Shown here: piece after piece, positions 31,681 through 56,173 of the stretch
Position numbering within the stretch: the first letter of the stretch is position 1
How the letters are laid out: each line of letters opens with the position of its first letter
Assembly (NCBI RefSeq): GCF_004365355.1
Contig: NZ_SODP01000002.1
Span: 1,235,838-1,299,837, forward strand
Direction of reading: 5' to 3'
DNA: 64,000 nt
Origin: Kribbella pratensis
GTDB lineage: Bacteria > Actinomycetota > Actinomycetes > Propionibacteriales > Kribbellaceae
Translations under genes and position numbers: made by a program
Notes under the pieces: generated by a model
What the model was told of the DNA's origin: nothing
The model's input: only the letters and a program-made list of their open reading frames with translations
The model's database searches: none

Positions 31681-31812
31681 CAGGCCTGCCAACCCAGGCC
31701 GGAAGCCGACGACGCTCGGATCGGCAGGCGCTCGACTCACGATTCCGCACAGAGGTACCCGCAGCCGCGGTCGTACGTCTCCGTCAAGGACGATCCGGAC
31801 TCATGCAGGGTT

Positions 31813-31827
31813 TGGTAGGCCCCGTGG
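31813..31827. repeat. Target-site repeat copy 1 (tRNA 3' terminus 15-mer)
   Basis: TGGTAGGCCCCGTGG is the reverse complement of a tRNA acceptor 3' end plus CCA. It flanks the left end of IS copy 1 and is repeated at 33175 and 34518, so each IS sits between two copies. The chromosome resumes to its left. Confidence 0.75.
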
Positions 31828-31917
31828 TGTTGTGGTTCAGGACATACCGGACGGGTGTCTCACGACATGCCGGACTGATGTCGCGGGTCATGCCGGACGG
31901 GTTGCTGATGCTCGGGC

Positions 31918-33126
31918 ATGTCGAAGGCCCGGTTGGTGATCACGGCTGTGGTGGTGGAGAAGCGGTCGGTGGGCGAGGTAGTTGCGGAGTACGGCGTGGC
32001 CCGGTCGTGGGTGTACGAACTTTTGGCGCGGTGGCGCCTGGAGGGTGAGGCGGCGTTCGAGCCCAGGTCGCGGCGTCCGAAGACCTCGCCGCGAGCCACA
32101 CCGGCCGAGACGGTCGAGTTGGTGCTGGCGCTGCGCAAACAGTTGTCCGAGCAGGGCCTGGACGCGGGCGCGGACACGATCGGCTGGCACCTGGAACACC
32201 ACCACGCCACCGTGGTGTCGCGGGCCACGATCCACCGGATCCTCACCCGCGCTGGCGCCGTCGTCTCGGACCCTGGCAAACGGCCCAGGTCGTCGTACCT
32301 GCGGTTCGCCGCCGACCAACCCAACGAGTGCTGGCAGTCCGACTTCACCCACTACCGCCTCACCCGTCCCGACGGCTCACCCGGCGCGGACGTGGAGATC
32401 ATCTCCTGGCTCGACGACCACTCCCGCTACGCCCTCCATGTCACCGCCCACCGAAGGATCACCGGGCCGTCGTGGTCGCGTCGTTCCGGGAAACCGTTGC
32501 GGAGTACGGGATCCCGGCCTCCACGCTCACTGACAACGGGATGGTCTATACGACCCGGTTGTCGGGTGGGAAGGGCGGCCGCAACGGCCTGGAGACCGAA
32601 CTGCGGCGCCTGAACATCGTCCAGAAGAACTCCCGCCCGAACCACCCCACCACCTGCGGGAAGGTGGAGCGGTTCCAGCAGACCCTGAAGAAGTGGCTAC
32701 GCACCCAACCGATCCAGCCGACCACGCTCACCGAGCTCCAGGCCCTGCTCGAGGTCTTCGTCGCCCAGTACAACCACCGCCGGCCGCACCGGTCGCTGCC
32801 ACACCGATCCACCCCAGCTGCTGCCTACAGCCCGGCCGAAAGCGACCCCGAGCACCGACCGAACCGGCGAGGTCCACCACCGGGTCCGCACCGACAAGGT
32901 CGACGACACCGGCGTGGTCACCCTCCGCGTCAACGGCCGACTGCACCACCTCGGCATCGGACGAACCCACGACCGAACCCACGTCTTGATCCTGGTCCAG
33001 GACCTGCACATCCGCGTCGTCGACGCCGCCACCGGCGAACTCCTCCGCGAACTCACCCTCGACCCCACCAAGGACTACCAACCCACCGGCAGACCACCCG
33101 GACCCGTCCCCAAAAGAAACAGGTGA
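31918..33126 (+). pseudogene. IS481-family transposase with two frameshifts (copy 1)
   Basis: Compared with the intact copy at 33261-34469. The N-terminal HTH (MSKARLVITAVVVEKRSVGEVVAEYGVARS) and first catalytic Asp (CWQSDFTHY) are in frame one. A 1-bp loss near 32470 moves the rest (LTDNGMVYTTRLSGG, NHPTTCGKVERFQQTL with the catalytic Asp and Glu) to a second frame. A second indel near 32830-32880 shifts the C-terminal part (VTLRVNGRLHHLGIG) to a third. Not functional unless programmed frameshifting occurs twice, which is unlikely. Confidence 0.85.
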
Positions 33127-33149
33127 ACCCACGAACCGTGGGTTCACCT
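33121..33149. terminator. 13-bp perfect hairpin at the end of transposase copy 1
   Basis: AGGTGAACCCACG pairs with CGTGGGTTCACCT around an AAC loop; the TGA stop of the transposase lies in the left arm. Copy 2 has the same structure with a compensated base pair, so the structure, not only the sequence, is conserved. Confidence 0.6.
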
Positions 33150-33174
33150 GTCCGGTATGTCTTGAGACATCACA

Positions 33175-33189
33175 TGGTAGGCCCCGTGG
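33175..33189. repeat. Target-site repeat copy 2 (between the two IS copies)
   Basis: TGGTAGGCCCCGTGG, the sole sequence between the two tandem IS copies. It serves as right flank of copy 1 and left flank of copy 2. Confidence 0.75.
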
Positions 33190-33260
33190 TGTTGTGGTTC
33201 AGGACATAGGAAACGGGTGTCTCAAGACATAGGAAACACCGTGGGGTTTGAGACTCGGGC

Positions 33261-34469
33261 ATGTCGACGGCCCGGTTGGTCATCACGGCGGTGTTGGTGG
33301 AGGGGTGTTCTCAGGCCGAGGTTGCGCGCCGGTACGGGGTGTCGCCGGGCTGGGTGAGCAGGCTGATGGCCAGGTACCGGGCCGAGGGCGAGGCGGCGTT
33401 CGAGCCACGCAGCCGGCGGCCAAAGACCTCGCCGCGGTCAACCCCGCCGGCGACGGTGGGGCTGGTGCTGGCGCTGCGCAAACAGCTGGCCGAGGCCGGG
33501 CTGGATGCGGGTGCGGACACCATCGAGTGGCACCTGCAGCACCACCACGACGTGCGGTTGTCGCGGGCCACGATCCACCGGATCCTGACTCGGGCCGGCG
33601 CTGTCGTCCCGGAGCCGGCCAAGCGGCCCAGGTCGTCGTACCTGCGGTTCGCCGCGGAGTTGCCGAACGAGTGCTGGCAGTCCGACTTCACGCACTACCG
33701 CCTCGCCAATGGCCACGACGTGGAGGTCATCACCTGGCTGGACGACCACTCCCGCTACGCCCTGTCGGTCACCGCCCACCCGCGGATCACCGGCCCGATT
33801 GTGACCACTACGTTCCGCGAAACCGTTGCAGAACACGGCATCCCGGCCTCGACGCTCACTGACAACGGCATGGTTTACACGACCCGGCTCTCGGGCGGGA
33901 AGGGCGGCCGCAACGGCCTCGAGACCGAGCTACGGCGCCTCAACGTGGTCCAGAAGAACTCCCGACCGAACCACCCCACCACCTGCGGGAAAGTGGAGCG
34001 GTTCCAGCAAACGATGAAGAAGTGGCTGCGCGCCCAACCGATCCAGCCGGCCACGATCGCCGAGCTCCAGACCCTGCTCGAGGTCTTCGTCGACGAGTAC
34101 AACCACCGCCGCCCGCACCGGTCCCTGCCCCACCGCGCCACCCCAGCGACCGCCTACCACGCCCGCCCGAAAGCCGCCCCCAACACCGACCGCACCGATG
34201 AGGTTCACCACCGGGTCCGCACCGACCGCGTCGACGACACCGGCGTGGTCACCCTCAGAGTGAACGGCCGGCTCCATCACATCGGCATCGGGCGAACCCA
34301 CGCCCGAACCCACGTCCTACTCCTCATCCACGACCTCGAAATCCGCGTCGTCGACGCCGCCACCGGAGAACTCCTCCGCGAACGCACCCTCGACCCCACC
34401 AAGGACTACCAACCCACCGGAAAACCACCCGGCCCCGCCCGCAAACACCCCAAACAGACCAACAGCTGA
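33261..34469 (+). CDS. IS481-family transposase (copy 2, intact)
   Basis: 402 residues. An N-terminal HTH domain (LVITAVLVEGCSQAEVARRYGVSPGWVSRLMARYRAEGEAAF) precedes an RNase-H-like DDE core: D in CWQSDFTHYR, D in LTDNGMVY, E in TTCGKVERFQQTM. The C-terminal beta-domain (GRLHHIGIGRTHARTHV) is the part found in longer IS481 transposases. It moves the IS by cut-and-paste or copy-out. The flanking repeats suggest it targets a tRNA 3' end. Confidence 0.92.
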   Translation: MSTARLVITAVLVEGCSQAEVARRYGVSPGWVSRLMARYRAEGEAAFEPRSRRPKTSPRSTPPATVGLVLALRKQLAEAGLDAGADTIEWHLQHHHDVRLSRATIHRILTRAGAVVPEPAKRPRSSYLRFAAELPNECWQSDFTHYRLANGHDVEVITWLDDHSRYALSVTAHPRITGPIVTTTFRETVAEHGIPASTLTDNGMVYTTRLSGGKGGRNGLETELRRLNVVQKNSRPNHPTTCGKVERFQQTMKKWLRAQPIQPATIAELQTLLEVFVDEYNHRRPHRSLPHRATPATAYHARPKAAPNTDRTDEVHHRVRTDRVDDTGVVTLRVNGRLHHIGIGRTHARTHVLLLIHDLEIRVVDAATGELLRERTLDPTKDYQPTGKPPGPARKHPKQTNS

Positions 34470-34493
34470 ACCCACGAATCGTAGGTTCAGCTG
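34463..34493. terminator. Hairpin at the end of transposase copy 2
   Basis: CAGCTGAACC-C-ACG pairs with CGT-A-GGTTCAGCTG around AAT, with one mismatch. The second base pair differs from copy 1 (G-C to C-G) but pairing is kept. Confidence 0.55.
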
Positions 34494-34517
34494 TCGCCTA
34501 TGACTTGAGACATCACA

Positions 34518-34555
34518 TGGTAGGCCCCGTGGGACTCGAACCCACAATCCGCGGA
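34518..34555 (-). repeat. Left attachment repeat: 3' half of a tRNA (att)
   Basis: Read on the minus strand this is an anticodon-stem 3' arm (TCCGC), variable loop, T-arm GTGGG-TTCGAGT-CCCAC, acceptor strand GGGGCCT, discriminator A and CCA. The same 38-bp block, with one mismatch, is at 55935-55972 in the same orientation. No 5' half is present, so it is not a working tRNA but an integration scar. The first 15 bp are the IS target. Confidence 0.75.
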
Positions 34556-54452: not shown

Positions 54453-54585
54453 CGCAGCCAGCCGCCTGCGACCACTCTGAGTATTGGGAGAGTTAACGCA
54501 GACCCGACGGTCCCGGCCGAGGCGCCGATCTGCGCCTGACCTGGGGAAAGCGGTAGGCCTGTTTGGCTTCGGGTGATCGTTGACG

Positions 54586-55856
54586 TGGTGGCTTCGGTTG
54601 TTGGTTGACACTTCTGGTTTGAGGTTAGTCCTGGTTTCGGGGGATGGACGCGTGCTTCTTTCGCACGTCGCCGTGGGTGGTGCGGGGGACGGTTTTGAGG
54701 AGTTGGCGGCCGTCCCAGATGTGGAGGAGCTGGGTGGTGACGTGGACGTCGACGTTGTGGCCAGCGGCTGCTTTGCCGAGGCAGATCTGTTGCCAGGACA
54801 CGGAGATGACGCCGTTGGATCCGGCGCGGCGGGCGATCCAGTCGTCACCGGTGCGGTCCTCGAGCACGCCGGTGAGTGTCGTGGGCATGCGGAGGGGTTC
54901 GATGCGGCGCTGGAAGCGTTCGGCGGGCGGGATCATGCCGATGCCTTGGTGGGGTCGGTGGGTGTTGTAGCCGCACACCCAGGCGTCGAGTTCGGCCTGC
55001 GCGGTGGCGAGGTCAGGGAAGATCCGGTCGGTGCGGAACTCCGCGCGCAGGGTGCGGTGGAACCGTTCCACCTTGCCGGTCGTGGTGGGTGAGCGAGGCT
55101 CGGTAAGCCGGTGGATGATGCCGTTCTCGCGGCACACTCGGTCGAACAGCACCTCCACGGGCGGGTGGTTGAACCGCCCGGTGAACACCTTCCCGTTATC
55201 GGTCAGGATCTCCTCCGGCACGCCGTAGGTGCGCATCGCTGCCGCGAGCCCGTCACAGACCCTGGGCGCAGTCTCACGGACCATCAGATACGCGCAGACG
55301 CAGAACCGGGAGTGGTCGTCGACCCCGGTCAGCGCCTTCGCGCGACGCCCGTCGGCCAGCTCGAACCCGCCGACCACGTCCATCTGCCACAGTTCCATCG
55401 GCTCAGCCCGTTCCCACCGGCGCCAATGCTCGCCGCGGCGCCGCCGCGCTCGCGGGTCGAGCAGCCCGGCCCGCACCAGCGCCCGGTAGATCCCCGACCG
55501 CGACGGCACCAACTCCTCGGCGAGCGTCTGATCGTGCTGCAAGTCGTACAGGATCCGGCGCGGGCCCCAGCCTGGATGCACCCGGCGCAGCTCCAAGATT
55601 CTGGCCTCGACGACCCCGCCGAGCTGATGCGCGCACGACGCCGGCCGGCGCGACCGCGGCGCCAACCCGGCCAGGCCCTCGTCTTCGTAACGCCGCAGCC
55701 AGGCATGCACCGACTGACGCGACACGCCCCACTGCTCGGCCACCTCGCTCACCGACCGTCCATCGGACAGCACCGCGAGTACCGCCTGGTACTTCTGCTC
55801 CTGCACGCTCAACTCCTGCAACATGAGTCGAGTGTCAAGAAACAACCGAAGCCACC
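54586..55856 (-). mobile_element. IS481-type insertion sequence, third element
   Basis: About 1.27 kb. GTGGCTTCGGTTGTT followed by TTGACACT at the left (from ~54587) is inverted at the right end (AGTGTCAAGAAACAACCGAAGCCAC, 55831-55855 region). The exact boundaries are uncertain by a few bases. It has inserted beside the truncated integrase repeat. Confidence 0.75.
54625..55824 (-). CDS. IS481-family transposase
   Basis: About 399 residues. HTH in YQAVLAVLSDGRSVSEVAEQWGVSRQSVHAWLRRYEDEGLAGL; DDE core with D in LWQMDVVGGF, D in ILTDNGKVFTGRF and E in TTTGKVERFHRTL; C-terminal beta-domain present. ATG 55824 gives the conserved start MLQELSVQEQ. The gene is intact. It differs from the two copies at 31.8-34.5 kb, so it belongs to another IS. 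Confidence 0.92.
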   Translation of the reverse strand: MLQELSVQEQKYQAVLAVLSDGRSVSEVAEQWGVSRQSVHAWLRRYEDEGLAGLAPRSRRPASCAHQLGGVVEARILELRRVHPGWGPRRILYDLQHDQTLAEELVPSRSGIYRALVRAGLLDPRARRRRGEHWRRWERAEPMELWQMDVVGGFELADGRRAKALTGVDDHSRFCVCAYLMVRETAPRVCDGLAAAMRTYGVPEEILTDNGKVFTGRFNHPPVEVLFDRVCRENGIIHRLTEPRSPTTTGKVERFHRTLRAEFRTDRIFPDLATAQAELDAWVCGYNTHRPHQGIGMIPPAERFQRRIEPLRMPTTLTGVLEDRTGDDWIARRAGSNGVISVSWQQICLGKAAAGHNVDVHVTTQLLHIWDGRQLLKTVPRTTHGDVRKKHASIPRNQD

Positions 55857-55934
55857 GTCAACCATCTACCGGAGCCACGTAAGCAAGAGCCCGAGCCAAC
55901 CTGTCAAGGATGACCCGGACTCATACAAAGAAAC

Positions 55935-55972
55935 TGGTAGGCCCCGTGGGACTCGAACCCACAACCCGCGGA
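55935..55972 (-). repeat. Right attachment repeat: 3' half of a tRNA (att)
   Basis: The same 38-bp block as at 34518-34555 with one mismatch (T to C). On the minus strand it reads AATCCGC (anticodon arm 3' side), GGGTT, GTGGG-TTCGAGT-CCCAC, GGGGCCT, A, CCA. AATCCGC suggests tRNA-Lys(CUU), but the anticodon itself is not preserved. A 22-bp segment just outside it (from 55905, GTCAAGGATGACCCGGACT...) is also repeated before the 31813 copy, with two mismatches. Confidence 0.75.
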
Positions 55973-56173
55973 TTGGGTATCCACGTTGTGCAGTGGTCCG
56001 CATCGCTGATCGAGTATTGCGTCTGACCTGGGAAGTCTTACTCAGAGCACCTGCCGTCGGTTCTCATCGCTTGGCGCTAGTTCGCGTCCAAAATGGTGGG
56101 CAATTTGGTGGGCGGCAACCTGCGTTCGCACGATGCGGCGGCTTGCCGACTTCCCTCCCCGACAGCCCTTCAG

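Follow-up and report, generated by a model that had tools for sequence, protein, structure and literature searches.

Clade A, as we call a branch of the IS481 family of insertion sequences (ISs) that is widespread in actinobacteria, is, on the evidence of sequence comparison, specific throughout the lineage and to the exact base for the 3' ends of tRNA genes, on a molecular basis that we infer below. Very probably its members transpose almost exclusively to such ends, in one fixed orientation, rebuilding the tRNA as they insert and accumulating in tandem stacks. Two of them stand in tandem at a tRNA-Lys remnant in the window, by which we mean the whole stretch of 64,000 nucleotides of Kribbella pratensis DNA that was analysed.

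The tandem pair is bounded by the 15-mer TGGTAGGCCCCGTGG, exact copies of which lie at 31813-31827 (the outer copy of the target-site duplication, complement of tRNA-Lys positions 62-76), at 33175-33189 (the copy common to both elements) and at 34518-34532 (the inner copy, still attached to the T-arm of the tRNA), with a fourth at 55935-55949. With up to two mismatches allowed, 0.12 copies are expected per window by chance, and four copies occurred in no shuffle. An earlier, sequence-only reading had placed the word at all three junctions of two tandem IS481-type elements, and it is indeed exact at each, starting at 31813, 33175 and 34518. The word corresponds to the 3' end of tRNA-Lys(UUU), including CCA. 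ARAGORN calls an intact tRNA-Lys(UUU) gene at C2:1306114, 6.3 kb to the right of the window, and no tRNA gene within the window, because the window holds remnants only. The remnant beside the pair (34518-34555, minus strand) comprises the acceptor strand and the T-arm, and agrees with the intact gene at every one of the first 30 positions and at seven of the next eight. It is the target of both insertions, and is probably an attachment-site copy of an integrative element. A second 3' remnant and attachment-site copy (55935-55974, minus strand) equals the intact gene over its first 40 positions. In the region from 34518 to 55950 and on to C2:1306114, tRNA-Lys appears to hold two integrative elements in tandem, marked by the remnants at 34518 and 55935 and by the intact gene further right. 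The first of these contains type I restriction-like and GmrSD-like genes, and a tyrosine-integrase-like C-terminus is found beside the intact gene.

Both elements lie on the plus strand and have TGT...ACA ends. Copy 1 (31828-33174, 1347 bp) is decayed, being recovered by tblastn in three pieces (31918-32469, 32469-32828 and 32830-33114; 75-87% identical to the protein of copy 2) in frames 1, 3 and 1, which implies two frameshifts. Copy 2 (33190-34517, 1328 bp) is intact, with a transposase ORF of 402 amino acids (33261-34469, plus strand), as the same reading had described for the pair. Each carries a subterminal inverted repeat at its right end, at 33119-33151 in copy 1, where it bears the T-arm word, and at 34462-34494 in copy 2, where it has the form YGRACCYRC-loop-GYRGGTYCR.

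The copy 2 protein scores 239.1 bits against the NCBIfam IS481 profile NF033577 (cutoff 224), while the next NCBIfam match, IS3, reaches 107 bits against a cutoff of 160; its Pfam matches are rve, rve_3, HTH_28 and HTH_32. The elements also have the 5'-TGT...ACA-3' ends with inverted repeats of the family, and their 15-bp duplication falls within its published range of 2-15 bp, in which most duplications are of 6 bp and some of about 15 (PMC10045372). The transposase is laid out as an N-terminal helix-turn-helix, a DDE core and a C-terminal beta domain, with a catalytic triad (D142, D201, E246) that is invariant across 40 relatives. In an AlphaFold2 model (pLDDT 77.8; pTM 0.53, too low for domain arrangement to be read), the predicted core resembles those of retroviral integrases (VIA, Z of about 17-18, rmsd of about 2.4 over about 150 residues), and the closest overall Foldseek matches are IS21 IstA and TnsB. 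Neither a TnsC ATPase nor TniQ/TnsD is present in the 1.33-kb element, which has only the transposase ORF between its ends. Likewise, no tyrosine integrase is encoded within the elements, whose sole coding product is the IS481 transposase, and Pfam and NCBIfam scans gave no match to a Cas1-family casposase.

Repeats at all three junctions would also arise from one insertion followed by duplication of the IS with one repeat, or by recombination between the 15-bp repeats, with no repeated targeting. Recombination between copies seems to be real in clade A, since exact duplications are missing from about one third of the relatives in which both ends are resolved. However, copies 1 and 2 are only 83% identical overall, and each pairs with a different outside element in the tree: the partner of copy 1 stands at a tRNA-Ser gene in Kribbella sindirgiensis (support 82/74), and that of copy 2, which does not group with copy 1, is in K. 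turkmenica (90/96). Neighbours in other tandem loci whose second protein can be read are similarly divergent (about 76% in L050 and about 71% in L081). A single insertion with later duplication is therefore very unlikely. As the copies have different nearest relatives, separate arrivals are the most likely account of their sequences, in agreement with the earlier proposal of two independent insertions rather than a simple recent duplication.

The copy on the tRNA side is the intact one and the outer copy is decayed, which fits the entry of new copies on the tRNA side. Outermost in the stack is a relic left end (31780-31807, minus strand) of an element of a second IS481 clade, clade B. It matches 23 of 28 positions of the left end (55900-55927) of the clade B element that lies beside the second tRNA-Lys remnant (54560-55927, minus strand; ORF 54625-55842, minus strand), and is the second best match in the window, the next having 20 and 18. 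It lies 5 bp from the CCA position, which is the usual place of clade B left ends. We infer that a clade B element inserted first at this tRNA-Lys end, followed by copy 1 and then copy 2.

The 80 best relatives of the transposase in GTDB genomes (57-84% identical) were chosen purely by protein similarity, and element ends were set by TG/CA, inverted repeats and duplications, then by an end profile, with tRNA information unused. These relatives, together with six loci from whole-genome searches, yielded 79 resolved right junctions, 77 of which have the T-loop motif of a tRNA 14-17 bp away (75 at 15-17 bp, two at 14 bp), as against 0.41% of control positions within these loci. The motif is absent from all 69 left flanks, which means that the orientation is fixed. 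An intact tRNA gene adjoins the right end at 63 of the 77 (ARAGORN; Met, Arg, Ser, Pro, Ala, Thr, Leu and Lys), and the targets cover at least eight isotypes and many genera. Random targets with unrelated flanks were looked for among these relatives and were not found, and the preference of the lineage for tRNA 3' ends, which had been suggested from the window, is borne out. The two remaining insertions (L031 and L092) are not at recognisable tRNAs, although the flanks of both have a T-loop-like word. A further candidate exception, L105, was dropped, as that locus is simply oppositely oriented.

In tRNA numbering the duplication spans 62-76, i.e. four bases of the T-stem, seven of the acceptor, the discriminator and the CCA positions. 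The join of the left end at 61/62 is constant and that of the right end shifts by about one base, giving mostly 15 or 16 bp. Exact duplications of 14-17 bp flank 44 of the 65 elements with both ends (15 bp in 29; 16 bp, slightly beyond the published range, in 13). Most of the other 21 have 15-mers resembling tRNA 3' ends on both flanks, often from different tRNAs. Seven elements (L070, L054, L064, L104, L079, L090 and L091) have the 3' end of one tRNA gene on one side and that of another on the other, a sign that copies at separate tRNA loci may have recombined and caused rearrangement.

Could integrative elements have placed the ISs at tRNA ends through a tyrosine integrase and attachment-site exchange, rather than their own transposase? 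The tRNA-Lys copies of the window are attachment-like remnants, and integrase-like sequence adjoins the intact gene. However, the boundaries of each element are exactly TGT/ACA plus a 14-17 bp duplication, with no other cargo inside, and the geometry is identical at eight or more isotypes in many genera, mostly at intact tRNAs, so that we regard placement by integrative elements as extremely improbable. Of the two kinds of site first suggested, a tRNA 3' end or the attachment site of integrative elements, only the former stands as such. Any of several tRNA genes can supply the site, which consists of the T-arm and the 3' strand of the acceptor; the remnants that integrative elements leave behind retain the T-arm and for this reason serve as well.

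A single genome can carry many copies. G513 has 12 near-full clade A copies, eight of which adjoin tRNA genes (Thr, three Arg, Met, two Ser and Pro), while in three a tRNA end is followed by another copy in a stack, and one is at a truncated target. At 10 of 69 loci another right end lies 15-16 bp upstream, making these candidates for tandems, of which about eight are strong. The tRNA is restored by the inner duplication, which leaves the site available for further insertions. Among 72,556 plasmids searched, one relative was found, on a 754-kb replicon, beside a tRNA 3' fragment and with an exact 15-bp duplication; a search of phages found none. A distribution of this kind might reflect broad insertion followed by selection that left only harmless sites, with tRNA 3' ends among the few, and the site is probably neutral, given that the tRNA is left intact. 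However, selection does not readily explain a base-exact register, a fixed orientation and the almost complete lack of insertions in intergenic and plasmid DNA, and other IS481 clades of this class have different targets. We consider selection alone highly improbable and retain targeting by the transposase.

At about 10 relatives, as in the window, there is a T-arm but no complete tRNA, and the insertions are thus at remnants. Remnants would therefore suffice as targets, which argues that the T-arm is recognised as DNA, rather than as transcribed tRNA, and that a working tRNA is not required; in any single case, though, the gene may have been whole at the time of insertion and have been broken afterwards. 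Among the targets, A59 is enriched (65 of 75, as against 20 of 47 tRNAs of this genome, p 5e-7), as is G49 (71 of 75 against 32 of 47, p 2e-4), although this preference could reflect isotype composition, as isotypes are hit unevenly and the background is one genome.

A related word is found inside the elements themselves. GGTYCR occurs in each of the 70 distinct right ends, 29-34 bp in from the tip, and has an inverted partner in 64 of them (0.02% in shuffles), in the form YGRACCYRC-loop-GYRGGTYCR seen in copy 2. GYRGGTTCR corresponds to tRNA positions 49-57, and on average the right-end word agrees with the T-arm of the element's own target at 7.0 of nine positions. At variable positions the two covary weakly above permuted pairs (p 0.003, uncorrected for relatedness). 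These matches hint that the right-end inverted repeat and the T-arm are recognised by a single surface, though the similarity could be due to chance or to a terminator hairpin. Capture of a T-arm was rejected as an origin of the hairpin, because the two arms point outward, the reverse of their arrangement in a T-arm. As for the hairpin being a terminator, either for the transposase gene or in place of the tRNA's own, with no role in targeting, it lies where the transposase gene stops, 20-60 bp in from the right end, and in most members its fold is strong. On the other hand, its loop-side half keeps GGTYC while the outer stem varies, and a terminator requires structure rather than sequence. For this part of the element alone, we rate the terminator as a real possibility, at somewhat under an even chance.

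Clade B also appears, from its flanks, to target tRNA 3' ends, in another register and in the orientation opposite to that of clade A. The 13 relatives considered are those with a visible tRNA or T-arm, some other members on that side of the tree being at contig edges or having ends that could not be placed. In the 13, the left ends lie 6-9 bp beyond the end of the tRNA as called, near position 81-83, the transposase is co-directional with the tRNA, and four of the 13 have exact duplications of 15-16 bp. The clade B element of the window, which is 34% identical to clade A, has decayed duplications at 54544-54559 and 55928-55943 (12 of 16 alike). In L183, on the clade B side, the tRNA is at a greater distance.

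The tree separates clades A and B (SH-aLRT 99 and 98); elements that target hairpins fall on the side of A, and B', a non-tRNA group, lies next to B, so that target type has changed at least twice. As clades A and B differ in register and orientation, two origins of tRNA targeting within IS481 are favoured by these comparisons, and a single origin with losses would be the less favoured history. Three elements on the clade B side with frames of about 620 amino acids (L149, L150 and L151) have 15-bp duplications by a shared non-tRNA word, GGCCCGCCTTGA....GTAG.GAAA.TCT, upstream of the left end, which is probably another specific target. Rfam found no RNA family at the flanks of the non-tRNA outgroup elements. 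In other IS481 clades, L117, L158, L112 and L133 are inside the loops of long inverted repeats that resemble terminator hairpins, with duplications of 14-15 bp in the first three and of 6 bp, centred on CTAG, in L133.

The position and orientation of clade A insertions, their duplications, the reconstitution of the tRNA, the recurrence across genera and the several copies per genome can all be read from the sequences, and the following mechanism would account for them. The DDE transposase, a single protein, would join the left end inside the T-stem, between positions 61 and 62 and beside the T-loop GGTTCRANTC, and the right end just beyond position 76. Fill-in of the 15-bp stagger would then give the element's right end a copy that restores the whole tRNA, toward which the transposase gene would always point. 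Since the rebuilt tRNA is a target again, tandem stacks would follow, later copies entering between the tRNA and the older copy and pushing the latter outward, so that the youngest is innermost. The target would be read as DNA via the T-arm, as the sufficiency of remnants and the T-loop-like words at the two insertions off tRNAs suggest. The transposase presumably acts without a partner, because the element has no other gene, and its target-reading surface may also bind the right-end inverted repeat that bears the same word. A fuller version, possible but somewhat doubtful, is that this is a single-protein DDE family that attains near-absolute specificity for tRNA genes by reading its own right-end word in the target (two outward-facing GYRGGTYCR in the element, GGTTCR in the T-loop), and that tRNA targeting emerged on two occasions within IS481, each time with its own register and orientation.

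Clade A resembles ordinary IS481 members, such as ISLxc2 with its target NCTAGN (PMC2516522), in transposase family, TGT/ACA ends and a single DDE ORF, but differs in its 15-16 bp duplications, tRNA 3'-end target, fixed orientation and C-terminal extension. tRNA targets are not mentioned in PMC2516522 or PMC10045372, and we found no earlier report of IS481 elements targeting tRNA genes in the open-access literature, though a prior description is possible. Among simple ISs, the nearest behavioural parallel is the ISAjo2 group of the IS1202 family, which has a single transposase, a pdif/dif target, constant orientation and repeated hits at one site, and whose target specificity was assigned to the transposase by the authors (PMC10132070). 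It is set apart by description as a different family, with a Xer site as target and a 5 bp duplication. The nearest parallel in target is the casposon of Aciduliprofundum boonei, which is found at the 3' end of tRNA-Pro with a 14-15 bp duplication and, near it, the motif TCAAATC that is recognised (PMC6614799). This motif looks like T-loop sequence, but the casposon is large and multi-gene and uses Cas1, not a DDE transposase. Tn7-like elements and type V-K CASTs reach tRNA att sites via extra proteins or guides (PMC11406308). They share with clade A a transposase of related kind (TnsB), TGT/ACA ends and the use of tRNA genes as safe sites, but require TnsC, TniQ/TnsD or a guide RNA, where clade A has one gene. 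In tRNA genes, box B overlaps the T-loop. The Dictyostelium elements TRE3 and Skipper-2 insert downstream of tRNA genes, TRE3 being positioned relative to box B (PMC5911963); unlike clade A, they are eukaryotic retrotransposons, with a loose distance of 8-150 bp.

Most ISs use loosely defined sites and damage genes, whereas clade A appears to have a built-in, base-exact and orientation-specific safe harbour that occurs many times per bacterial genome, and neither a partner protein nor a guide RNA is apparent. Casposons and amoebal retrotransposons offer a parallel, as they use the same part of the tRNA gene, and clade A could seed compact site-specific insertion tools. Targeting of tRNA ends accounts for the IS stacks, and probably also for rearrangements between tRNA loci. 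Clade A is a natural experiment in the gain of target specificity by a DDE transposase.
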